Assembly: GCA_027023805.1 (NCBI GenBank)
Contig: JALVUF010000020.1
Coordinates: forward strand, 1-41,251
Origin: Helicobacteraceae bacterium
Lineage (GTDB): Bacteria > Campylobacterota > Campylobacteria > Campylobacterales > Sulfurimonadaceae
Direction of reading: 5' to 3'
Length of the DNA: 41,251 nt
Shown here piece after piece: positions 1,361 to 14,169 of the stretch. The notes under the pieces are model-generated. The model was not told the DNA's origin. It saw nothing but the letters and a program-made list of their open reading frames with translations, and searched no databases. The translations under genes and the position numbers were made by a program. Each line of letters starts with the position of its first letter. The stretch's first letter is position 1.

Positions 1361-2843
1361 TAAAAAAAGAGCTGTATTGATAGCAAGATATGAAATAAGC
1401 TATAAAATATGCATATATTTTATAGCAGCACTAATATATACTTATTTTGCAGGTTTTAGTATGCAAGATGATGGCTTAAGAAATATTGCATTTGCATATC
1501 ATCAAAATATCATGCACTCTTGGGGATACATATATCCTCATTCATTATTTTTTTTACATTATGATCCATGGCATGTATGGGATAGTATATTAGCTTTTTA
1601 TTTAAAATTCTTTCCTTATAACAAAGTTCACATGGCTATTAATTTTACCGCCTTGTTTAGTCTAATGATATTACTTGAATTGTTATTTAGAAAATTTTCA
1701 AAAATAAACTTTCATACTTTATCTGTGTTTTTTATATTAATGATCGCTTCCATGGGTTGTGGTAGATATATTAATGTCAGACCTGACTTATTATCCGGCT
1801 TATTTTTAATGCTTGCTTTACTGCTTGATAAACGTTTAATCTTTTTGTTTATTCTTACTATATTATACTCTAGTAGCTACTATCTATTTTTTTTATATAC
1901 AGGATCGGTAGGTTTAGTGTATATGATATTAAAGAATTATAGAGCGTTAATATTACTTTTTATCGGTTCTTTGATTGGATTGTTTATTCATGTGTTATAT
2001 GGGGGTATGGATTTTCTTAAAACAGTATCACACTTACTGCATGACCAAGCCTTAAGAGATGGTTTGATGGTTGGAGAAGGTCAGCCTTTATTTAGTTTTA
2101 TACATATTTTTAATTATTATGTTCTTGTCGGTCTTTGTCTTACTGTTACTTTTACGCTGGCTTACAAATTTTATCGTTATTTTAAGCAACAACCAATCGC
2201 CCTACTCCTTTTAATTATGTCACCGCTCTGGCTGGCTCAGATAAGATATTTTGAGATACTTCAACCACTATTTTTTCTGTATCTATTGTTAGAGAGTAAA
2301 AAAATCATAGATTATATGCTCTCACGACGAGTAAAATATTTTATTTATAGGTTAGCTCATATATTTAAATCACTAAAATTCAATAAACTTTTTATAGTCC
2401 CTACGCTGCTTTATACCATTGCAATTCTGGGCTATTCCATGAGTACGCATAATCATATAAAAACTCTGCAAAATAAAATATTTTATAAAGATGAAATCTT
2501 TAATGATAAAATCATACTATTTAATACCTTATCCTCTGATATCTATTACGCTTCATACCTAAATCCTACTATCAGGTTTGTGCCTAGCTGTAGCATAGGA
2601 TGGTTTAGAGGCAGTAAAAAGATGAAAAAGATTTACGTACAGATGATGAAACCCCGCGGCATCACGCCAAAAGAACTTAAGGCGCTCCTTACATACGTGC
2701 ATGCCAGTTATTTTTTTCAGGTGCTAAATAATGATAAACAGATGCTATCATTTAAAAAATTAGACAAACTCGGTATCAAGCCCATTATGATAATAGATGA
2801 TAAAATTTTATTTAAAAATATCAATCTTAAAGGAAAATCATGA
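1353..2843 (+). CDS. Polytopic membrane protein, possibly a GT-C-fold glycosyltransferase
   Basis: This 496-residue protein has roughly ten to eleven hydrophobic segments between residues 20 and 375. A soluble C-terminal domain of about 120 residues follows, likely periplasmic. After the first membrane segment comes SMQDDGLRNIAFA. An acidic pair in the first external loop is typical of GT-C enzymes, which move sugars from polyprenyl-phosphate donors. I see no other family signature, so the assignment rests on topology, the acidic pair and the neighbour: the downstream gene is a GT2 enzyme of the kind that makes such lipid-linked sugars and overlaps by ATGA. The start overlaps the tetR end. 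An unrelated membrane protein remains possible. Confidence 0.6.
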   Translation: MDNKKRAVLIARYEISYKICIYFIAALIYTYFAGFSMQDDGLRNIAFAYHQNIMHSWGYIYPHSLFFLHYDPWHVWDSILAFYLKFFPYNKVHMAINFTALFSLMILLELLFRKFSKINFHTLSVFFILMIASMGCGRYINVRPDLLSGLFLMLALLLDKRLIFLFILTILYSSSYYLFFLYTGSVGLVYMILKNYRALILLFIGSLIGLFIHVLYGGMDFLKTVSHLLHDQALRDGLMVGEGQPLFSFIHIFNYYVLVGLCLTVTFTLAYKFYRYFKQQPIALLLLIMSPLWLAQIRYFEILQPLFFLYLLLESKKIIDYMLSRRVKYFIYRLAHIFKSLKFNKLFIVPTLLYTIAILGYSMSTHNHIKTLQNKIFYKDEIFNDKIILFNTLSSDIYYASYLNPTIRFVPSCSIGWFRGSKKMKKIYVQMMKPRGITPKELKALLTYVHASYFFQVLNNDKQMLSFKKLDKLGIKPIMIIDDKILFKNINLKGKS

Positions 2844-3760
2844 AAATTGCTGTGCTAATACCGTGCTTTAATGAAGAAGCAACCATTGAAAAAGTCATTC
2901 TTGATTTTAAGCAGGCTTTGCCGCAAGCTAATATTTTTGTATATGATAATAATTCAACAGACAACAGCTATATAGTTGCCAAACGAAATGGTGCAATTGT
3001 TAAAAAAGAGTACAGGCGCGGCAAGGGTAATGTTGTGCGTACTATGTTTTTGGATATAGAGGCTGATATATATGTTATGGTTGATGCCGATGACACCTAT
3101 CCGGCACAAGAAGTCTTAACATTAATCGATCCAATTGTAAACTGTGAAGCTGATATGTGCGTTGGAGACAGACATTCAAATGGAAGCTATTTACAACAAA
3201 ATAAGAGGATGTTTCATAATTTTGGTAACAACCTTGTTGTAAAATTAATCAACACCTTATATAAAGAAAATTTAAAAGATATTATGAGTGGATACCGCGC
3301 TTTTAATAGAGATTTTGTTAAACATTTCCCAATCCATAGTGGTGGCTTTGAGATAGAAACTGAAATGAGTATTCATGCGCTTGACAAACGTTTTAAAATA
3401 AAAGAAGTTCCAGTATCATACAAAGACAGAGAAGATGGAAGTGTGTCAAAACTAAACACATATACCGACGGATATAAGATACTCAAAACAATATTTTGGT
3501 TATTTAAAGATTATAAACCGCTTATGTTTTTTTCAATAATAGCTGGAGTATTTTTTATATTTTCTTTAGTAGCAGGAGTGCCTGTAATAGTTGAATTTGT
3601 GCGTACGCATTATATCGCAAAAGTACCGTCTGCTATTTTAGCAGTCGGTCTTATGCTGATATCAACTATGACGCTGTTTATAGGCTTTGTCTTAGATACT
3701 GTTACAAAACAGCATAAAGACAATTTCGAATTATTTAGATTAAACAATAAATATAAATAA
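2840..3760 (+). CDS. GT2 family glycosyltransferase, polyprenyl-phosphate sugar synthase-like, membrane anchored
   Basis: This 306-residue protein begins with a GT2 (GT-A fold) catalytic domain (about 1-220). The opening is IAVLIPCFNEEATIEKV, then VYDNNSTDNS and the metal-binding VDADDTYP. MSGYRAFNRDFVKHFPI and GGFEIETEMS follow as in dolichol- and undecaprenyl-phosphate sugar synthases. Two hydrophobic segments near the C-terminus (about 232-256 and 263-290) anchor it to the inner membrane. Such enzymes transfer a sugar from a nucleotide donor to a polyprenyl phosphate. The membrane gene before it overlaps by four bases and may use the product. The sugar and final acceptor cannot be told from sequence. 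The gene ends 20 bp from the convergent pilin gene. Confidence 0.88.
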   Translation: MKIAVLIPCFNEEATIEKVILDFKQALPQANIFVYDNNSTDNSYIVAKRNGAIVKKEYRRGKGNVVRTMFLDIEADIYVMVDADDTYPAQEVLTLIDPIVNCEADMCVGDRHSNGSYLQQNKRMFHNFGNNLVVKLINTLYKENLKDIMSGYRAFNRDFVKHFPIHSGGFEIETEMSIHALDKRFKIKEVPVSYKDREDGSVSKLNTYTDGYKILKTIFWLFKDYKPLMFFSIIAGVFFIFSLVAGVPVIVEFVRTHYIAKVPSAILAVGLMLISTMTLFIGFVLDTVTKQHKDNFELFRLNNKYK

Positions 3761-3780: not shown

Positions 3781-3960
3781 TCACTGCATTGCGTTATTAA
3801 TAGCAGTATTTGCTTTAGTCATGATATTATTTTTTTGCCCGGTTAACCAAACATTTATACCTGCTACTAAACCTACTCCGATAAGTACAAGCAATAATGC
3901 AATCATAACACCACTCAAACCTTTTTGAGACCTAAACCTTTTAAAAAACCTTTTTAACAT
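3781..3960 (-). CDS. flp: Flp-like Tad pilin (small prepilin)
   Basis: This short gene encodes 59 residues. The basic leader MLKRFFKRFRSQKG is followed by the hydrophobic stretch LSGVMIALLLVLIGVGLVAG and a short polar tail ending NNAMQ. This is the Flp prepilin plan: a short basic leader with cleavage after Gly14, then a hydrophobic assembly helix. It lacks the usual Glu at +5 and the Tyr after it. AAAGGAT lies six to seven bases before the ATG. The gene sits 97 bp behind the secretin gene with its own TATAAT promoter, fitting the need for far more pilin than machine parts. It is the only good major-pilin candidate here. Confidence 0.82.
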   Translation of the reverse strand: MLKRFFKRFRSQKGLSGVMIALLLVLIGVGLVAGINVWLTGQKNNIMTKANTAINNAMQ

Positions 3961-4057: not shown

Positions 4058-5842
4058 TTAGTTTTTACAATAAGTAAACCGCCTTGAAATCCATAATACA
4101 TGTGAGAGTTTTCTGCACACATTTTTATAACAATCCTGAGTAATATTGATCCATACACCTCCTGTTTTTGTTTGTTGCTTTAAAGTTGTTATAAATTTAT
4201 GTCCATATATCCAGATACCTTGAATGGTTCCATTTATTGGTTTTGATCTTATAAATATCTTTTTAGTTGAAACCATGCAGTCGTGTTGCATCAGTTTAAC
4301 AGATTTTTGTTTGATAACTACATGTTGCTTAACAACCTGAATACTCTTTTTTGGCTGCATAATTATTTGGCTGTTTTTAGAAGTAGTAATATTGTTATCA
4401 GAGAAATTAATATCCTTTACCGAAATATTATTAACAATAGCTGCGTTACCAATTGTACCTTTTTTCGGAGTCAAGACGATTGTATCTATTTTTTTACTGC
4501 TGGTTTTATGTTCATTTTGTATATCTAGTGTTTTTACAGTCGTTGTGTTATCATCACTGCCTAAAAGATTAAGTTTTTGACTGCCTTGTTCAAATCTGTG
4601 GTAAAAATGTGTGTCATTCGTATCTGTTTTTTGATTGATGATTTGCGGTACCAGAAAAAATAACAGATCATTTTCATTATTGCTTGTTGAATCATTTCTA
4701 AACAACCTGCCTATAAGCGGTAAATCGCCTAAAAATGGAATTTTGGATTTTTTAACAGTGCTTTGTTTATGCAAACGTCCGCCAAGAGCTATAACCTGTC
4801 CTGATTTTGCAACAATATTGGTGCTGATATGTTTACTTAAAAAAGATGGTACCACAACACCGCTTCCAAGACTGACATCATGTGCTTTATCAGGATCAAA
4901 TTCACTATCGCCTATTTTTACATCTACATCTATATAATTGCTATGATTTAAAAATTTCGTTGTTAGCACAAGTTTTAGGCCATATTGCTTTTTTCTCAGC
5001 TGAATAGTAGGCGGATACCCTGCTCCGGTTTGCGTTAAACCTATGGGAATATACACATCTCCTCCGACTTGAAAGCTTGCGTTTTTATCCTCTGTTGTTG
5101 TTAAAACAGTATCATCCAATATTTTAGCGATTCCTTTCGTTTGCAAGAATTTCAGTGTACTGGTCAAACTATGCGTACCTGAGCCTCCAAAAGTTGAAAA
5201 TTGATCTATATTATTTAACAGCCAACCACTAAAAGTTGCTGATGTTGCTACTCCTGGATTTAGTGATGCACTTATATATTGGTTAAAAAAACCGAGTCCG
5301 GTTATCCCTCCCAATTGCTTTGCTTTTGTGTTGTTAATCTGAACTAGATACAGTTTTGTTCTCACCATTTTATTAATTTTAGTTGTAGTTGTAATATCCA
5401 TAATGCGCTTTAAATTAAATCCGGCATTTGCTAAAAGCTTATAAACACGCTTCTTTTCATGGGGATTTGAAAAGACCCCTGATATAATGATTGAGCCATC
5501 GCCTATGCGGTGGAGACGAATTTTTGGCTGTATATTATTAATCATACTCTGTATGAATGCAAGATTTTGGTTTACATAGATTTGATAGTTGAGTATTTTT
5601 CCATTACTAAATACAATAAGCATTGAGGTGTTACCACTTTTTTTACCATATAATTTTAATGTTGTAAAAGAACTATGCGGCATATTTAGTAAAGACACAT
5701 TTATAATTCCTTTACTTCCGATAATAATTTTAGATATGCCTCTATTTAGCTGTAATACCTTAAATTCGTTTTGAAACACCACTATATCTTTTGCCAAGAT
5801 TATTATAGATGACAATAGCATTGCTAATATAATTTTTTTCAT
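4058..5842 (-). CDS. rcpA: Tad pilus outer-membrane secretin (RcpA/CpaC type) with SH3-like C-terminal extension
   Basis: This forms the outer-membrane channel for the Tad pilus. The 594 residues start with a signal peptide (1-17), then the pilus-secretin N-terminal domain (about 20-95) and a BON-like domain (about 105-150, with IGDGSIIISG). The secretin core spans about 225-403 and includes IALGGRLHKQ, KIPFLGDLPLIGRLFR and LLFFLVPQII. Unusually, about 190 residues follow. A polar linker (404-517) leads to a Cys-containing module (about 518-594) with IFIRSKPINGTIQG, GGVWINI and VLWISRRF, resembling a bacterial SH3 domain. AGAGGA precedes the ATG. It follows the TadE/F-like gene by 12 bp. The secretin call is firm; the SH3-like call is by eye. 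Confidence 0.93.
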   Translation of the reverse strand: MKKIILAMLLSSIIILAKDIVVFQNEFKVLQLNRGISKIIIGSKGIINVSLLNMPHSSFTTLKLYGKKSGNTSMLIVFSNGKILNYQIYVNQNLAFIQSMINNIQPKIRLHRIGDGSIIISGVFSNPHEKKRVYKLLANAGFNLKRIMDITTTTKINKMVRTKLYLVQINNTKAKQLGGITGLGFFNQYISASLNPGVATSATFSGWLLNNIDQFSTFGGSGTHSLTSTLKFLQTKGIAKILDDTVLTTTEDKNASFQVGGDVYIPIGLTQTGAGYPPTIQLRKKQYGLKLVLTTKFLNHSNYIDVDVKIGDSEFDPDKAHDVSLGSGVVVPSFLSKHISTNIVAKSGQVIALGGRLHKQSTVKKSKIPFLGDLPLIGRLFRNDSTSNNENDLLFFLVPQIINQKTDTNDTHFYHRFEQGSQKLNLLGSDDNTTTVKTLDIQNEHKTSSKKIDTIVLTPKKGTIGNAAIVNNISVKDINFSDNNITTSKNSQIIMQPKKSIQVVKQHVVIKQKSVKLMQHDCMVSTKKIFIRSKPINGTIQGIWIYGHKFITTLKQQTKTGGVWINITQDCYKNVCRKLSHVLWISRRFTYCKN

Positions 5843-5854
5843 TTTTTTCCTCTT

Positions 5855-6286
5855 TTATTTACAGATATACTTAACTGAACTGTTTTGATCTTGATATGAA
5901 TATGTAATCATCTGTGCTTGCAGATTTTTATTGAAATATCTACTTTTATACCCATAAGATACTGTTACATCGATGGTGCTGGGTGAAGGGTTGGGATTTT
6001 GGGATACAAGTTGAATCGAAGTATGATTTGGGCATAGAGATGCAGCGTTTTTTAGTGCAGATTTATACATGCTACTGCTGGCTGCATCTGTTATATTTTG
6101 CTCATTGTCTAATGCGCGTGATATAATGTTTGATATCAATATTAGGTTATTATCAACTCTCATAACACCCCAATAATCTGTCAGTAAAATCACAATAAAT
6201 GCTAATGTTGGAATAACAACTAAAAGCATAGCAATAATTTGAGCAAATCCAAATCCGCTTCTCCATACTCTAGCCTTTTTATTCAT
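5855..6286 (-). CDS. TadE/TadF-like minor pseudopilin
   Basis: This 143-residue protein starts with a short basic leader, MNKKARVWRSGFG. A hydrophobic helix follows (FAQIIAMLLVVIPTLAFIVI), then a soluble periplasmic part with two Cys, ending SSVKYICK. This is the general shape of TadE/TadF pseudopilins, which are processed by the Tad prepilin peptidase and help prime pilus assembly. The ATG at 6286 overlaps the end of the preceding cpaB-type gene. A TTG two codons upstream is also possible. It lies between RcpC and the secretin. The family call rests on architecture and position rather than a clear motif. Confidence 0.65.
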   Translation of the reverse strand: MNKKARVWRSGFGFAQIIAMLLVVIPTLAFIVILLTDYWGVMRVDNNLILISNIISRALDNEQNITDAASSSMYKSALKNAASLCPNHTSIQLVSQNPNPSPSTIDVTVSYGYKSRYFNKNLQAQMITYSYQDQNSSVKYICK

Positions 6287-7181
6287 AAACAATTTTAACC
6301 AAATGATGATTTCGTTTCACATTATGTAAAGATCTATGTTTATGCAGATTTGTCAAGTGCAACATCAACATCTTTTTAGTGTGCTCAAACCGACTGTTAG
6401 ACTTACCATTGCATTTTACAATCCATAACTGCCCATCATAGCCATTGCTTGAATAATATCTCATGCTATCAAGAGACTGTGTTTTATAATAAAGCGCTAA
6501 TAAATTAGCGATACCGCTTGGAGAAAGCTCCATAATTACACTATCTGCAGCTACAACGGAGTGTGCTTTATCGTTTAGATGAATTATAAATGTGTTTACC
6601 AACTTATGCTTATATAAAAAACCTTTAACCGCTACATGTAAAGCCACATATCTTGTTTTAAATATCAATTGACCATGTTGGTTATGTGACGGAAATACCG
6701 TAACTATATCAACCTTGTCTCCTGCATGTAACGGTGAGCTAAAATTTTTAAACATGTTTATAGGAACAGAAATTGTATCTACGCCTAAATGTTCAATTTT
6801 TTGGTTTGTCTTATGTATGGAGTTTATCACTGTTTTTATAGGTTTTGATATATCTTTTGAACGCTTTATCAAAGATAACTCATTTTTCTCAATCGGCATA
6901 AACTTTAAGATATCCTCCTTTGCATATTTTCCTATAATCTCCGTATAAGGCAGAGGTTTAAATGAGATAAGATTAATCGGAAAACGTTTAGCTACGATAT
7001 CTTCGGGCTTTATCTTGGATCCGAGTTTTACAAAATGCTTGGCAACAAACACATTTATCGTCGGTTGAATCATTTTATGCATATTATTTTGTTTATAGTA
7101 AAACCATAGCGTTGTAGATGATAGAAAAAATATCGCTGATAACATTATGGCTATTAAAACTCTTCTTTGTTGTTGTCTCAT
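6279..7181 (-). CDS. rcpC: Tad pilus periplasmic assembly protein RcpC/CpaB
   Basis: This 300-residue protein has one N-terminal membrane anchor (about 8-28). An SAF-type domain (about 43-105) follows, with VFVAKHFVKLGSKIKPEDIV, RFP and KEDILKFMPIEKNELSL, as in CpaB and flagellar FlgA chaperones. The RcpC-type middle part has VSVPINMFKNFSSPLHAGDK and VDIVTVFP, then VALHVAVKG. These proteins work in the periplasm beside the secretin. AAAGGATACAA precedes the ATG. It lies 17 bp behind tadC, and its end overlaps the next pseudopilin start. Confidence 0.88.
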   Translation of the reverse strand: MRQQQRRVLIAIMLSAIFFLSSTTLWFYYKQNNMHKMIQPTINVFVAKHFVKLGSKIKPEDIVAKRFPINLISFKPLPYTEIIGKYAKEDILKFMPIEKNELSLIKRSKDISKPIKTVINSIHKTNQKIEHLGVDTISVPINMFKNFSSPLHAGDKVDIVTVFPSHNQHGQLIFKTRYVALHVAVKGFLYKHKLVNTFIIHLNDKAHSVVAADSVIMELSPSGIANLLALYYKTQSLDSMRYYSSNGYDGQLWIVKCNGKSNSRFEHTKKMLMLHLTNLHKHRSLHNVKRNHHLVKIVYE

Positions 7182-7198: not shown

Positions 7199-8032
7199 TT
7201 ATGTGATAGATTTCATAAGTACGCCGGCAATCATAGGAAACATAATAATTGCAATAATAGCAGGCAGTATAAATATAAATACAGTCAAGGTAATACCTAT
7301 ATTCATCAGTGCCGCTTTTTTTTCAACACCCAAGATATCAGCTTCTTTTATCTCAATAGATTGATTTTCAAATATTTCTTTAACGCCTATGCCGGTATCT
7401 TCAGATAGTTTCATAAAGCCAACAATAGTTGAAATAGCTTCCGAAGATGTTCTATTTGCTAGATTAGCATAAGCTATGTCACTGTTGTAGGTTATAAATT
7501 CTTGTTTAAAGCGGCGTGACTCTTCAAGCAAATCCTCTCCTATTACGCCTGTGCCTTCTGTTGTAACCGTATCAATAGCATTATGAAGACCGCCTCCCCC
7601 TTCAAGGATAATAATCAACAGATCTATAAAAACCGCCAAATCATTATCTATTTTTTTAACTCTTGCTTTCTTCTGCTCATCAACATAGAGCATAGGCATA
7701 AAAACGGCGATAGAGATAGAAATAATAAACACCAATATCTCCATAGGCCATGACAGATGAAACAAAAAGCTAAGCAAAAAAACACTAGCTCCTGCAATGC
7801 CGGCAAGATAAATTATCTGTTTGTATTCCTTCTTGGTGATACCGGCTTGAACCAATTTTAGTTTTAACTTATCAGCTTTATTGGTGGTATCTGAAAAAAT
7901 ACCAAAACTGTTCGTTTGAAAAATAACTTTTATCCACTCTCTATGTTTACGCAAAAGATATAAAAAATAAAAACATAAAAATAAAAAGATAACAAATGAT
8001 ATCATCATTACAATATCTAGCATAAATATCAT
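7199..8032 (-). CDS. tadC: Tad pilus inner-membrane platform protein TadC
   Basis: This 277-residue protein belongs to the T2SF (GspF) family. It has an N-terminal membrane segment (about 4-26), a pair near 75-110, a cytoplasmic helical domain (about 115-235) and a C-terminal membrane helix pair. The motif ALMNIGITLTVFIFILPAII closes the protein. With TadB it forms the inner-membrane platform on which the TadA ATPase works. Its start overlaps the tadB stop by ATGA. TadC is assigned over TadB because it is the second of the pair and has the TadC-like ending. Confidence 0.87.
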   Translation of the reverse strand: MIFMLDIVMMISFVIFLFLCFYFLYLLRKHREWIKVIFQTNSFGIFSDTTNKADKLKLKLVQAGITKKEYKQIIYLAGIAGASVFLLSFLFHLSWPMEILVFIISISIAVFMPMLYVDEQKKARVKKIDNDLAVFIDLLIIILEGGGGLHNAIDTVTTEGTGVIGEDLLEESRRFKQEFITYNSDIAYANLANRTSSEAISTIVGFMKLSEDTGIGVKEIFENQSIEIKEADILGVEKKAALMNIGITLTVFIFILPAIIAIIMFPMIAGVLMKSIT

Positions 8033-8967
8033 TTCTCAATCCTGGTAATAATCCTGTTTATAAACAATCCAAATATCACCCATGCGATAATCCCTAAAAG
8101 TTCAAATCTGCCATAATGACTAGTCATATAAAAATGTTGGATTTTACCTTGAAAATTTGCATTTAAAGCAAAATATAAAAAGACAGCAATGCCTGCTATG
8201 AGATATGAACCCACAGAACTCTCCCTAGTTACAACATCTATCTTTTCCTGCATTTTTTTTCTATGTCTTATGGTTAATTCTACTTTGTGAAGTGTTTGTG
8301 AAAATCTTCCGCCGCTTGCCCTTCCGATTTTAACAGAAAGTGCAAATATCTTTAATTCACGCGACTTGATATATTTATTCATATTATTAAATGCCTCTTC
8401 TTCTCCGATTGTATTTTTTTCATGAAAAAATCTACCAAATAACTTTTTAAGCATAACAGAGCTTGAAATATCTACAGCTTTTTGTAGTGATTGCTCAAAA
8501 CCTACACCATTTTTCATCATTTTCACCAATACGGAAATGGCAATCGCCAAAGCTCGATTAAATTGTATCGTTCTGTATGATATAATTAATTCTATAATCC
8601 AATATGAAATACCGCTCCCAACCAATAAGCCAAGAATAACACCGATATAAATATTTTTTAAAAATACAGAAAAAATCAATATACATAACGATAAAAAAAT
8701 AATTTCTACAAAAAACAAAACAATATTGGAAATATTCTCTATGCCTAAAAGCATTTTTTTACTATTTAACTTACTTAAAAACGATCTCTTTTGTGATATA
8801 TTTTTATAATCAAGCAATTCTGGACTACTAGAGCTACCTATTGAGATCATCTGTTTAATACTTCGTAATTGATATGCTTTTTTTAAATATCCAAATATTT
8901 GTAACACCAGCACTGCTAAAGCGCTACTGCTGATAAAAAGTAAAATAACCTCAATGATAATCTTCAT
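8029..8967 (-). CDS. tadB: Tad pilus inner-membrane platform protein TadB
   Basis: This 312-residue T2SF-family protein has membrane segments near 5-25, 80-125 and at the C-terminus. Between them is a helical cytoplasmic domain with FNRALAIAISVLVKMMKNGV and FEQSLQKAV, then LKIFALSVKIGRASGGRFSQ, the conserved TadB/GspF pattern. It pairs with TadC to build the assembly platform. It starts one base after the tadA stop and ends by overlapping tadC, so the three are surely cotranscribed. Confidence 0.9.
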   Translation of the reverse strand: MKIIIEVILLFISSSALAVLVLQIFGYLKKAYQLRSIKQMISIGSSSSPELLDYKNISQKRSFLSKLNSKKMLLGIENISNIVLFFVEIIFLSLCILIFSVFLKNIYIGVILGLLVGSGISYWIIELIISYRTIQFNRALAIAISVLVKMMKNGVGFEQSLQKAVDISSSVMLKKLFGRFFHEKNTIGEEEAFNNMNKYIKSRELKIFALSVKIGRASGGRFSQTLHKVELTIRHRKKMQEKIDVVTRESSVGSYLIAGIAVFLYFALNANFQGKIQHFYMTSHYGRFELLGIIAWVIFGLFINRIITRIEK

Positions 8968-8968
8968 T

Positions 8969-10516
8969 TTATAAGTTTGACCATCTCTCTACAATATTTT
9001 TACCGTCACTGTATGAATTTTGAATAATTTCAGCCATATAATTTTCTTTCCACCCACACATTCTTGATGGAGGAAACTGAATTAATTCATCTATAATCAT
9101 ATCTTTTGTAACTACAAAGTCGTTATCAAAAATTCTACTATCCATATCGACACCATTATCTAACATTTTTTTAATAGCCCTCGAAGATGCAGATACTGCT
9201 ATAAATTCTCCATGCGAATTCATAGGATTTGCGCTCCCGCCTAATCTTTTAAATTCTAAAAGATCAAGCATTGCGACAACTCCACTCTCTTCCACTCTTT
9301 TTTCAGGCTCAGAAATCTTAACTATTCGTCTTGTGCCGTCTGGAAATCTAATTAACTGAACAATCAAATCGACAGCTGAAATAATTTGTGAGCGTACAAA
9401 ACCCATATTGGCAGTCGGGCGGGCTTCTAAAAACATATTTTCGATTCTAACAATTGCCTCTTTTGTATCATCGGAGTGTATGGTTGTCATAGAACCGGGA
9501 TGCCCTGTATTCATAGCATTTAGCATCGTAACGATTTCAGGACCCCTGCATTCTCCTACAATGATACGTCTTGGGCTTGACCTTAGTGCGGTCTTAAGCA
9601 GTGCTTCGATACTGATTTCACCGACTCCCTCTTCATTTGGAGGGCGAGCCTCAAATGATCTTATAGAGTGACACGGCATCTGTGGTTTCATCTCCTTGGT
9701 ATCTTCTATAGTTAATAATTGGTCGCCTTCATCTATAAATCTTGTTAAAGAGTTTAAAAAGGTAGTTTTACCGCTTGAAGTTCCGCCGGAGACAACGATA
9801 TTTAGCTTGCCTTTAACAGCATTGATTAAAAAATATGCCATTTTAAGGTCCATCATACCGGAATCTATAAGTGATTCAAAAAGAAGTGGAATCTCACGAA
9901 ACTTTCGCAATGTAACGTAAGCTCCAGGCTCTCCATCTTTATTTAAATTTGCCGCAACTGGCGGTATTTGGACTTCTAATCTTGATCCGTCTATTAATTT
10001 TGCAGATGCAATAGGATGTGATTCATCGACTTTTCTGTTTGATGTAGAGAGCATTCTGTTGATTATCTTTTTAAGCTCCTCTTCACTTCTAAAACAAAGT
10101 GGAGTAGAGATTGTTTGACCGGCGTAAATAATATCAATATAATCTTTTGTATTAATTAAAATATCATTTAAATTATCTCCGGCAAGTTTTATCAGAGTGG
10201 TAATTGGTCCAAAATATAACAGATTATTAATCACAAATTCTGAAATCTCATGTTTTAAAACAGCTTTTGGAATGGAATACTCAGAGATATGCTTAATGAC
10301 GACATCTCGGATCATCTGCTCGGTTAAAGTACCATTTATATTTAATTTTTCAACAAAATCATCGTATATCAGACATGCTAATTTATAGTAAGTTCCATCT
10401 CTGTACATAAGCGGAAAACAAACCTGATTGCAGATTGAATCTGCGATAGCAGATGTTGATTTCTGCTCTATTTTCGTCGTATTTTTTAAAAATCTTATCT
10501 TATCTTTTAGAGCCAT
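8969..10516 (-). CDS. tadA: Tad pilus assembly ATPase TadA/CpaF
   Basis: This is the secretion-type ATPase that drives pilin assembly. The 515 residues include an N-terminal helical domain (about 1-110), the PAS-like N2 region, and the GspE/VirB11 core. The core has Walker A GGTSSGKTT (about 244-252), an Asp box TIEDTKEM, Walker B-like RRIIVGECRG (about 316-325), and the His box GHPGSMTTIHSDD (about 338-350). All catalytic elements look intact. The C-terminal 100 residues extend past the usual end of the core. It overlaps the tadZ gene by ten bases and is followed by tadB after one base. Confidence 0.96.
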   Translation of the reverse strand: MALKDKIRFLKNTTKIEQKSTSAIADSICNQVCFPLMYRDGTYYKLACLIYDDFVEKLNINGTLTEQMIRDVVIKHISEYSIPKAVLKHEISEFVINNLLYFGPITTLIKLAGDNLNDILINTKDYIDIIYAGQTISTPLCFRSEEELKKIINRMLSTSNRKVDESHPIASAKLIDGSRLEVQIPPVAANLNKDGEPGAYVTLRKFREIPLLFESLIDSGMMDLKMAYFLINAVKGKLNIVVSGGTSSGKTTFLNSLTRFIDEGDQLLTIEDTKEMKPQMPCHSIRSFEARPPNEEGVGEISIEALLKTALRSSPRRIIVGECRGPEIVTMLNAMNTGHPGSMTTIHSDDTKEAIVRIENMFLEARPTANMGFVRSQIISAVDLIVQLIRFPDGTRRIVKISEPEKRVEESGVVAMLDLLEFKRLGGSANPMNSHGEFIAVSASSRAIKKMLDNGVDMDSRIFDNDFVVTKDMIIDELIQFPPSRMCGWKENYMAEIIQNSYSDGKNIVERWSNL

Positions 10517-11712
10517 TGCTTAAGCCTTGATAAGAAATTGTCAGGTTTTTTCAGCACCATTTTTTTATTATCTTCGAAATGTTGATGATATGTAAAAAAC
10601 TGTCTTGTCAGCAATAATAGTTGTTGACTCAAAGGCGCATTTGGATACAAGTCATATATAAGCTTTGCCTCATTCCAGCACTCCCTGCAATGGGCGGCAT
10701 CGTTTGGTAAGGAAAAATCTATCTCAAATTGATGCTTCAATCCTCTTGAGAGTATTTTTTTAGCATCCTCTTGGGTTATTGTTCCAAAAGAATCTACACG
10801 ATTTGCTATGATACGTGTTTTGTTATACCACCCACTTTTATCAATAATATCTATATATGTTTTTAAAATAGACATCGACGGGATGCTAAATTCAGCAATA
10901 ACAAAAATTTCATCAGCCATTTCTTGAATATCAACTTCTAGCTCGACATCTTCAAAAACACCAATATCTATGATAATAAAATCAAATTTCTCTTTGATAA
11001 AATTGATAAAATTTAAAAATTTTTGAATATTTTCATGTTTGTCCAAATCTTCTCTGTCTGTATGTTTTTGAATTCCGGGCACAACAAACAAATTATTTGA
11101 TATTTTATATAAACCGCTATTAAACAACTCTTCAACTTCTAAATTTGGCATCGTAGCAATATCTATAATATATTTTTCTGGATTTATAATGTTGAAAAAA
11201 AGATTTGATATTGCTTTTGTATAGGCAAAATCTAAAAATAAAACATTTTTATCTTGATACTCATCTGCTAGGCATCTGGCTGTGTTCATGGCAATTGTTG
11301 TAGTACCAATCCCGCCGCTAATACCCGTAAAAACAGAAATATTGCTTTTTCCTTTTCTGTGTTTTATAACAAGCCGGGAGTCAATAACCAGCCTATGTAT
11401 ATCTACAACTTTACTGGGACTGCTATCGTTAATATAAGCATCAACGCCTATTTTGCCTGCTTGTAGTGAAAACTCTATATCATCTTTACCTATTACTATT
11501 ATATAAATATTATTTTTAAAATGCATAGATGTGAGTATTTGTAGTTCATTTATAGATTCAACTCTATAAATTAAAACTATATCTCTATTGTTATTTGTGG
11601 CATAAAAGTTGATGAACTCGTTTATGTTGGCAAAATTTCTAACATCTTCAAATTCATCAACAAATTTATTATAACACTCCATATCAGCCTGTGAAACATA
11701 CGCAACTATCAT
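10507..11712 (-). CDS. tadZ: Tad pilus localisation protein TadZ/CpaE (ParA/MinD-like)
   Basis: This 401-residue protein has an N-terminal receiver-like domain (about 1-110) lacking clear phosphorylation residues. A MinD/ParA-type ATPase domain (about 122-385) follows. The deviant Walker A loop reads GISGGIGTTTIAMN, with Thr in place of both the signature and P-loop lysines. LFLDFAY and FIIIDIGV mark the following strands. CpaE/TadZ proteins place the Tad machine at a cell pole and many have weakened ATPase motifs, so this fits the family. The start overlaps the stop of the 589-residue gene (TAATG). It is cotranscribed with tadA. Confidence 0.88.
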   Translation of the reverse strand: MIVAYVSQADMECYNKFVDEFEDVRNFANINEFINFYATNNNRDIVLIYRVESINELQILTSMHFKNNIYIIVIGKDDIEFSLQAGKIGVDAYINDSSPSKVVDIHRLVIDSRLVIKHRKGKSNISVFTGISGGIGTTTIAMNTARCLADEYQDKNVLFLDFAYTKAISNLFFNIINPEKYIIDIATMPNLEVEELFNSGLYKISNNLFVVPGIQKHTDREDLDKHENIQKFLNFINFIKEKFDFIIIDIGVFEDVELEVDIQEMADEIFVIAEFSIPSMSILKTYIDIIDKSGWYNKTRIIANRVDSFGTITQEDAKKILSRGLKHQFEIDFSLPNDAAHCRECWNEAKLIYDLYPNAPLSQQLLLLTRQFFTYHQHFEDNKKMVLKKPDNFLSRLKQWL

Positions 11713-13481
11713 TATCTTATACCTTGCATGACGTTAAGCAGTTTAAAATGTGTTGTTGTGCCCGGCTGTCCTATCTTAAAGGATGAAGTATTTTTTAGAT
11801 CTAAAATAAGATTATTGTGTACTTGTTGCTGATAACTGACGACTGTAAATCCAAGATTATGAAGTAATGAATCTATTGCTTGATTTTTAGTTGGATTAGT
11901 AGATTTTTTTGCAAAAAGCTGTAAAAAATTACCAAATAATGAACCAAGAAGTGAAGACTGCTGCCCCTGGTTTCTTCTGCACCATCCAAGCCAATCTTTG
12001 GTTGTCAGTTTTATAGTGTATTTTTTAAATATTTTAAACGGGAAGCCCCATTTTGTGACAGTAGGATTTAAAACTGAATAATAACTAGTATTTAATTTAC
12101 TTAGCGGTGTTTTTGTTTGAGAAAAATAAGAAGAAGTTGATATAGTATGAATAAATCGGTATCCCTGATTTAATTTTGTCGCATCAGTTTTAAACTCAAC
12201 CGATATATATCCAACCTGTTTAGCATTATTTTGCTTAACCGTACACTGTGTTACGTTTGTACCATACACACTCTCAATTCCTGTTAAAAGCATCTGCTTG
12301 ATACCTGAGACAATATTATTTTTTACAATAATAAATGCAAGCGGTACAGGTTTTTTGAATTTAAATTGCACATCTGCAAGCTGTGTTGTGTTTGTGGACT
12401 TTGAGCCGAAAAAAAGATGTATCATAGACTTAAACATATATGACGCAGGTTTGAGAAGTTGGACTAAAAAGTTTGAACCTTTTCCACCCGAAACAGATGT
12501 TGTAGAAATATTACTTAGATAGTCAGTATGGTTTAGTTTACCGGCCAATGCCAATAACGTGTTTTCGGTATCCGTTACCATAGAAGTCGTTGTAATAACA
12601 GTTTTATCACGATCATTGACAAAAGGCATCCAGCTTGATATATTAAAAAACTGTATGATTTTACATGTAAGAGAATCCAGATTGTAATCAAATATTAACC
12701 CACTGCATCCCGTAGTCTGTGTAGTAGATTGATTGTTGTAATCAAGAAGCGAAATTTTATCTTTTGTTGCTTTGTTTGGCTGAGAAATAAAGATTGTGCC
12801 AGAGTGTGCTTGACTTGCCTGATCGATTCCATAGGTTATATTTTCAACATATCTTATTCTTAAGTTGCTAAGAGATGGATTCATTGGGTTATATGTTGTT
12901 GTTTTAAGAGAAAAGTAATTTTTAATCAAAGAGAGTAGATAATTAAAAAAACCTTCACCACTTGCTTGTTTTGTAACAGTTACAGATTTTGTAAAATATT
13001 TCTTATTTCGATATGTATCAATGGCATAAAATGAACTAATGTTTGATGGAGTATAACTTTTAGCACTTCCATAAGGAATACGATATTCTCCTTGCGGCAA
13101 GGTATTATCATCAATACCTTTTTGTAAATTCGGATTTGTAAATGTTCCAGTATTGACAATAAAAGGTTTTTGACCGGAACATCCATTTAGATCAAGGCTT
13201 CCATCACGACAAACAAAAGAAGCCTCAGTTGAGAGTGAGAAGATACCCGTAGTTGATATATTCGAATATATAGACTGGCTCTTAGGATTACTAAACTTAC
13301 CCCAAAAATTATTAATTTTAAAATTTTTTGTAGATATCGTAACTTTTTGCTTGGATACGGTATTGCCATATTTATCTGTTGAAATATTAGATAGTTTTGA
13401 AAATGTTGTTGTAGTTGTTGTATTTTGTGCAAATACTCCAGCAACAATAAAACAGCTTAGAACTAATATCGATTTTTTCAT
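11712..13481 (-). CDS. Unrecognised secreted protein in the Tad operon (589 aa)
   Basis: I do not recognise this family. A signal peptide (about 1-18, ending GVFAQ) and a run of Thr lead into a Thr/Ser/Asn/Lys-rich protein with a beta-rich look. Six Cys fall in spaced positions (VCRDGSLDLNGC, GCSG, LTC, QCT, GWCRR). Four short hydrophobic patches recur: FFNYLLSLIKNYF, IIQFFNISSWMPF, FLVQLLKPASYMFKSMIHLF and LLGSLFGNFLQLF. It is exported, overlaps its upstream neighbour by ATGA and tadZ by TAATG, and so belongs to the Tad machine. It occupies a place where no tadG or rcpB is seen. An adhesin or surface or periplasmic pilus part is possible, but that is inference. Confidence 0.8.
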   Translation of the reverse strand: MKKSILVLSCFIVAGVFAQNTTTTTTFSKLSNISTDKYGNTVSKQKVTISTKNFKINNFWGKFSNPKSQSIYSNISTTGIFSLSTEASFVCRDGSLDLNGCSGQKPFIVNTGTFTNPNLQKGIDDNTLPQGEYRIPYGSAKSYTPSNISSFYAIDTYRNKKYFTKSVTVTKQASGEGFFNYLLSLIKNYFSLKTTTYNPMNPSLSNLRIRYVENITYGIDQASQAHSGTIFISQPNKATKDKISLLDYNNQSTTQTTGCSGLIFDYNLDSLTCKIIQFFNISSWMPFVNDRDKTVITTTSMVTDTENTLLALAGKLNHTDYLSNISTTSVSGGKGSNFLVQLLKPASYMFKSMIHLFFGSKSTNTTQLADVQFKFKKPVPLAFIIVKNNIVSGIKQMLLTGIESVYGTNVTQCTVKQNNAKQVGYISVEFKTDATKLNQGYRFIHTISTSSYFSQTKTPLSKLNTSYYSVLNPTVTKWGFPFKIFKKYTIKLTTKDWLGWCRRNQGQQSSLLGSLFGNFLQLFAKKSTNPTKNQAIDSLLHNLGFTVVSYQQQVHNNLILDLKNTSSFKIGQPGTTTHFKLLNVMQGIR

Positions 13482-13759
13482 ATCTTACCTTTATATATAT
13501 GATTTGCATGCATCATATTGCGTATATAGCCATTAATCTTCCCATCAACGTCAGTATCATTTGAATCATCAACCTGCATTAACTCAATTTTTCTGTTAAT
13601 AGCGGCACTCAACAGGCGATGCTGCAAATTTTGTAAGTTTTCAAGGCGATTAATCTTGTGAGTGTTATCGCCCTCCTGTCCTAAAAACCAGATAAACCAA
13701 AAGATAAACATCACGCCAATCAATAAAGGAACAAATGCTGCTGATCCATTTCGTTTCAT
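13478..13759 (-). CDS. Small pseudopilin-like membrane protein in the Tad operon
   Basis: This 93-residue protein has a short leader (MKRNG) and then a hydrophobic helix, SAAFVPLLIGVMFIFWFIWF. A polar, helical tail follows with LENLQNLQHRLLSAAINRKIEL and an acidic stretch DDSNDTDVDGK. The layout resembles TadE-like minor pseudopilins, but no motif proves it. TGGAG precedes the ATG by a normal distance. The gene lies 11 bp behind the prepilin peptidase and overlaps the next gene by four bases. It could equally be a small membrane partner of the Tad machine. Confidence 0.65.
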   Translation of the reverse strand: MKRNGSAAFVPLLIGVMFIFWFIWFLGQEGDNTHKINRLENLQNLQHRLLSAAINRKIELMQVDDSNDTDVDGKINGYIRNMMHANHIYKGKI

Positions 13760-13770
13760 CTATAACTCCA

Positions 13771-14169
13771 CTATATGTTTACTATAAAGTAACTAACGAC
13801 TGTTGCTAGACTCATAGCAGGCGCAAACGCAAAGGTTTCTTTTTTTGTTAAATACAAAAAAATTATCTGTAAAATACCGCTAAGTAAAATAAACCATCCT
13901 ATAGGATGCAGACCTAAAAAAAGAGCACAAAAAACTCCAAAACGAATATCACCGCCACCAAACTTTAAATTTAAAGCAATAAACATCGTAAATAAAAAAA
14001 AGACTAATAAAACAGCATAAATATCACCTAACTGAAGTTTATAAAAAAGCAACTTTAACAAAAGTAATCCAACGATTGCCGGTAAAACAATTATATCTTT
14101 GATATAACCTGTCTTTATATCTTCAATAGAAATTATAATAGATATAAAAATAAAAAATAATAATAAGAT
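13771..14169 (-). CDS. tadV: Type IV prepilin peptidase (TadV/CpaA type), start codon unresolved
   Basis: This inner-membrane aspartic protease removes prepilin leaders. Two catalytic Asp motifs are visible: ISIEDIKTGYI (near 14105-14130) and KFGGGDIRFG in the GxGD region. Several hydrophobic segments surround them. A TTG at 14061 would give a 96-residue product without the first Asp, so it is too late. The frame stays open upstream to a stop at 14185-14187. It offers only non-standard codons there, for example ATC at 14169, seven bases after AAGGG. A GTG beside that AAGGG is in another frame, so a one-base error or frameshift in the T-rich run is possible. The call is sure; the start is not. 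Confidence 0.8.
   Translation of the reverse strand: MLLLFFIFISIIISIEDIKTGYIKDIIVLPAIVGLLLLKLLFYKLQLGDIYAVLLVFFLFTMFIALNLKFGGGDIRFGVFCALFLGLHPIGWFILLSGILQIIFLYLTKKETFAFAPAMSLATVVSYFIVNI

Follow-up and report, generated by a model that had tools for sequence, protein, structure and literature searches.

Two adjoining genes of a Campylobacterota Tad operon as the probable head and stalk of one minor pilin

What is the 589-residue protein encoded in the middle of the Tad pilus operon of this Sulfurimonadaceae genome? An earlier note on the window (the whole stretch of 41,251 nucleotides which was analysed) had described it as an exported protein, made together with the pilus machine, possibly a tip adhesin or an outer-membrane component. 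We consider it likely that this protein and its 93-residue neighbour are, respectively, the head with a distal part and the stalk helix of a Tad minor pilin which has been split into two genes. That the two genes are homologous, in order, to one single-chain protein is well supported. The evidence for homology is good and that for function moderate.

All the genes of the operon lie on the minus strand, in the order TadV, 93-residue protein, 589-residue protein, TadZ, TadA, TadB, TadC, RcpC, TadE-like protein, RcpA and Flp. The TadV-like prepilin peptidase (13771-14061) was recognised by a weak Peptidase_A24 match and its conserved position, and its true start is upstream of 14061: between 14061 and 14200 (minus strand) the reading extends beyond the first ATG, GTG or TTG, and conserved peptidase residues are found there. 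After the two genes of interest come a TadZ/CpaE-like ATPase (10507-11712; profile matches and conserved position), the TadA/CpaF motor ATPase (8969-10516; T2SSE 5e-43, TadA-family model 3e-61), a TadB-like platform protein (8029-8967; weak T2SSF match and position), a TadC-like platform protein (7199-8032; weak model match and position), an RcpC/CpaB-like alignment protein (6279-7181; SAF 7e-6 and CpaB model 1e-5, below the cut-off), a TadE-like minor pilin (5855-6292; position and a 37.5% profile match to the TadE-like protein of a second family, see below), the RcpA/CpaC secretin (4058-5842; Secretin 1e-32) and the Flp major pilin (3781-3960; sequence and conserved position). This Flp lacks the Glu at +5 which is usual in type IV pilins. 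Like the earlier note, we could recognise no tadG, tadD or rcpB among the genes of the operon; a TadE-like gene is present. PF13400 (TadE/G-like) has no match in the whole genome, in a search which is insensitive.

The reading frame of the 589-residue protein is genuine. The coordinates, length and overlaps given before were right, and the strand, which had been left unsaid, is the minus strand: the gene reads from 13481 to 11712. It shares four nucleotides (ATGA) with the 93-residue gene upstream and one (TAATG) with tadZ, which follows downstream. Its N-terminus resembles a typical Sec signal peptide (residues 1-18, 13428-13481, minus strand), MKKSILVLSCFIVAGVFA followed by QN, with a predicted cleavage after VFA which we judged by eye. 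A similar hydrophobic leader starts each of the 20 aligned homologues. The six cysteines reported are those of the mature protein, the precursor having a seventh inside the signal peptide; the six are invariant in 20/20 homologues. With leader cysteines excluded, the mature count is even (6, 8 or 12) in all 20, including the lineages which have gained extra cysteines; such counts fit a pairing into disulfides. The richness in Thr and Ser holds for this protein (22.8%) but not as a strict trait of the family, because the homologues range from 15 to 25%. The hydrophobic patches which had been noticed do exist, are conserved and coincide with predicted helices (178-189, 339-358 and 511-523). That they form a homologous internal repeat was rejected, as the comparison of the profile with itself gave a probability below 1%.

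Neither the single sequence nor a profile of 20 sequences matched anything in Pfam, NCBIfam or the sequences of the PDB, where the best match had an E-value of 0.51. No enzyme or toxin domain was found in the protein (Pfam, NCBIfam; Pfam also across the homologues), and it has no lipobox.

The protein is present in 25 of the 228 genomes of the home family, and its TadA in 29. When only genomes of at least 90% completeness are counted, the two sets are identical (16 of 139). Five genomes of lower quality have TadA without the 589-residue protein; in four of them the contig ends before the slot, and in the fifth (G174) the Tad locus is divergent and the slot is filled by another protein, of single-chain type. 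The order TadV, small protein, 589-residue protein, TadZ, TadA is kept in every home-clade locus which spans the region, so that the pair always occupies the slot between TadV and TadZ of a TadV-TadZ-TadA-TadB-TadC-RcpC-TadE-RcpA operon. Across the phylum, evenly sampled with 397 genomes, only the home family has the protein. Hence it is a fixed, obligate part of one Tad operon in that family and not an unrelated add-on, and the earlier suggestion of a lineage-specific pilus part is borne out by the 16 good genomes which it shares with TadA. In the literature on Tad pili in Sulfurimonas which we searched, we found no account of this operon.

The same strict retention with the machine across the whole clade bears on one alternative, namely that the protein is a secreted effector or cargo merely travelling with the pilus operon. 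It is indeed a Thr/Ser-rich exported protein of unfamiliar fold encoded in a pilus operon, and pilus-dependent cargo is known from other type IV systems (TcpB/TcpF, cited in PMC12075869). The lack of any enzyme or toxin domain match and the homology to a membrane-anchored operon protein, described next, also speak against cargo, and we regard this explanation as very improbable.

The same Tad operon is found in G174 and in many members of another family of the order (the second family, f9, probably the Arcobacteraceae), but in most of these one protein of 312 to about 860 residues stands between TadV and TadZ (the loci L099, L101, L102 and L078 are among them). This single-chain slot protein consists of an N-terminal pilin-type membrane helix, a beta-rich head and variable C-terminal modules; in its long members the C-terminal end consists of bacterial Ig, cadherin-like or DUF4114 domains. 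Its N-terminal helix aligns with the 93-residue protein, and its head motifs TFWYxF, APxAIN and FYAV align with NNFWxKF, KPFxVN and FYAID of the 589-residue protein. Slot, succession of pilin-type helix and beta head, and the motifs FW, P.xIN and FYAxD are thus common to both. Unlike our pair, the single chain has no signal peptide and lacks the six invariant cysteines, and its C-terminal modules differ and vary. The part collinear with the beta head is residues 44-194 (12900-13352, minus strand; hhalign). The distal part, residues 195-589 (11715-12899, minus strand), contains four of the six invariant cysteines (259, 273, 413 and 501) and has no detectable relatives beyond its own family; the homologous stretch is only about the first third of the protein.

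We compared the profiles of the two families (20 sequences for the 589-residue protein, 19 for the single chain) with hhalign, so that the E-values given here refer to single comparisons and not to a database search. The 589-residue profile matched the single-chain profile with a probability of 89% (E 2e-6, score 55, against a maximum of about 26 for shuffled columns), and the profile of the 93-residue protein matched the single-chain N-terminus with E 7e-5 (score 34.7, shuffle maximum about 24). When the small and the large protein were joined in genomic order, the match to the single chain rose to 96.5% in local mode (score 82) and 98.1% in global mode, and it persisted at 95.9% without L078; joining them in the reverse order brought no gain. 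The other Tad proteins of the home operon, taken as controls, reached at most about 2% against the compared profiles. The sole strong match linked the single-chain protein to the TadE-like minor pilin encoded in the same operon: the single-chain N-terminus reached 94-95% (shuffle maximum 27). One such TadE-like protein also matches the Pfam Tad family PF13400 below threshold (E 8e-4). By these comparisons the 589-residue protein, which had been thought to match no Tad component, corresponds to the head of a single-chain minor pilin in the same slot of a related family, and its probable membrane half, in the adjoining gene, had been overlooked.

That gene, for a membrane protein proposed as the stalk-helix half, lies at 13478-13759 on the minus strand and was assigned by adjacency and hhalign. 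A gene of its type, with homologues of about 90 residues, always adjoins the 589-residue gene in the home-clade loci, and helix and head are encoded by two genes in all of them, never as one polypeptide. The spacing between the two varies from an overlap to a gap of about 15 nt. An origin of the split in a frameshift or a sequencing error was rejected: this spacing varies, and in 20/20 homologues the second gene starts with a leader of its own. The region of the prepilin site in the 93-residue protein reads [GA]-S-x-A-[IFL]-V, with Gly or Ala before SxA; it is not a canonical site, as neither Glu nor Phe stands at +5. Taken alone, the protein gave no profile match to TadE of either lineage, and the N-terminal helix of PF13400 or PF07811 was found neither in it nor in its large neighbour.

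Structure models agree with this division. The AlphaFold model of the single chain (pLDDT 81, pTM 0.53) has a long helix 2-57 and helices 60-71 and 75-83, followed by strands. That of the 589-residue protein (pLDDT 70, pTM 0.58) has, after the leader, a strand 41-57, a short FW helix 61-64, a strand 69-86, the PFIVN strand 104-110, a strand 132-137, the FYAID strand 151-155 and the hydrophobic helix 178-189. The elements run in the same order in both models, which are of moderate quality by their pTM of 0.53-0.58, and with 83 residues the helical portion of the single chain is about as long as the small protein (about 90). Therefore the split would lie between stalk and head. Against solved structures (Foldseek, VIA-align) the model of the 589-residue protein gave no credible match, the best Z being 4.5, and that of the single chain gave nothing clear; a match of the latter to the minor pilin PilX (Z 4.3, 78 residues, 3.0 A) was dropped, since unrelated folds had similar or higher Z. 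The structure prediction proposed earlier as a check has thus returned a shared order of elements and no credible solved relative.

The models also bear on the idea that the protein serves the machine in the outer membrane or the periplasm, either as a stand-in for RcpB or TadD or as a partner of the secretin. Neither RcpB nor TadD is seen in the operon, and an exported protein with hydrophobic helices would suit such a role. The model, however, gives no hint of a barrel, a lipobox is lacking and the homologous single chain begins with a pilin-type helix. Moreover, RcpB and TadD have no obvious counterpart in the f9 operon either, and the slot protein there is clearly anchored by its helix. 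We hence hold this explanation to be unlikely, and of the two roles first suggested for the protein, the outer-membrane component is the less likely one and the tip or adhesin role, as the head of the proposed split minor pilin, the best reading.

A tip role could also be filled by a separate adhesin resembling PilY1, which would bind an independent minor pilin, the 93-residue protein, without the two ever having been one pilin; the likeness to the single chain would then come from a shared docking domain which was fused in the second family. In type IVa pili, the large Sec-exported protein PilY1 has been proposed to sit at the tip on top of small pilins, and the 589-residue protein is likewise large, Sec-exported and rich in predicted disulfides, with C-terminal two thirds which have no counterpart in the single chain. 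Yet both parts in the window match one chain, in order and with lengths that agree, which is not the relation between PilY1 and its pilins, and the beta-propeller domain of PilY1 has no Pfam match in the 20 homologues. We therefore find an independent adhesin rather doubtful, and a split minor pilin the preferable reading.

The TadA tree concerns the same point. The split-gene loci form one group (99/97), G174 goes with the single-chain family (96/93) and the canonical Tad loci make a third group (100/100). As the root is not proven, the second family could instead have undergone a fusion. Single-chain large minor pilins are, however, also present in the canonical Tad loci of the phylum. As these are found in both other groups of the tree, the simplest reading is a gene fission, probably in the ancestor of the split-gene lineage and with the gain of a signal peptide.

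Among the closest known systems are the large Tad minor pilins TadG/CpaL and KilN, proposed to act at the tip, in which a pilin-like module carries a big distal domain (PMC12607857, PMC12075869). The single-chain slot protein has this architecture too. All of these tip pilins consist of one chain, CpaL of Caulobacter having a VWA domain (PMC12607857) and KilN of Myxococcus a modular distal domain (PMC12075869), and in the literature which we found on Tad minor pilins, including the recent work on CpaL and the Kil tip, only single chains with a pilin stalk are described. In situ work on the Tad machine (PMC13170226) puts such minor pilins at its base until the pilus is assembled and at the pilus tip from then on. 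By Pfam, neither the 589-residue protein nor its homologues have a VWA domain. Such a domain is absent from some TadG and KilN proteins too. The profile comparison across the Tad loci of Campylobacterota matched the single-chain slot protein and detected no direct similarity to the canonical TadG of the phylum: against 12 TadG sequences the joined pair reached at best 12.8%. The canonical TadG matches the PF13400/PF07811-type helix weakly. For want of a direct profile match we do not file the 589-residue protein as a TadG, only as a protein which may work like one.

In Geobacter, one pilin subunit is made from a short helical polypeptide, PilA-N, and a globular one, PilA-C (PMC11046646). Adjacent genes for a short helical chain and a globular chain, the mark of a split pilin of this kind, are what we find here, and we propose that they too give one subunit. 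The Geobacter subunit differs in being a type IVa major pilin with much smaller chains, and we claim no homology with it.

We infer that the two proteins rejoin and that they stand at the pilus tip, a role which published work describes or suggests for TadG, CpaL and KilN, all of them large minor pilins of one chain. The 93-residue protein would be placed in the inner membrane and serve as the pilin stalk; the 589-residue protein would be exported separately by Sec, fold with about three disulfides and, once in the periplasm, attach itself to the stalk. Together with TadE, the two could then prime Flp assembly and ride out to become the tip, where the distal domain would contact surfaces or other cells. 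On balance we lean, by a little, towards a tip minor pilin which is permanently split and whose disulfide-bonded head rejoins the stalk helix noncovalently. If this is true, tips could possibly be exchanged or shed without a new stalk. What a Tad pilus touches is decided by its tip minor pilins. In a lineage which encodes the stalk apart from the head, nature would have set up an experiment on the way a pilin head is held in place, and the separate head gene would make the tip easy to tag. The split would also explain why TadG seems absent from the Tad loci of Sulfurimonas-like bacteria, and two protein families left blank by standard annotation gain a testable name.

Several minor observations concern the surroundings of these loci. 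The Tad loci of the phylum fall into two clearly distinct lineages: the canonical, which includes TadD/E/F/G-like genes (L105-L108), and a reduced one (L099-L104 and the window). The Flp of the home lineage reads QKG/[LM]SGV and that of f9 EKG/AMDKIL, both without Glu at +5. Extra single-chain copies without adjoining TadV or TadZ occur in f9 (L110 1501-2472, L115 305-2493, where two stand in tandem, and L136 1489-2598) and could, by analogy with the Kil system of Myxococcus, be interchangeable tips; no such single-chain copy was found elsewhere in the genome of the window. A few f9 genomes have other, divergent single-chain relatives, placed away from any recognised Tad locus (L129 574-3319, L130, L127). 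Finally, divergent from flp, the window encodes on the plus strand a 496-residue multi-membrane protein (1353-2843) and an overlapping family-2 glycosyltransferase (2840-3760). A similar pair (494 and 308 residues, the glycosyltransferases about 50% identical) adjoins flp in the f9 loci L103 (12875-15278) and L104 (13388-15795), and likewise in L014; these pairs are possibly a Tad-linked glycosylation module.
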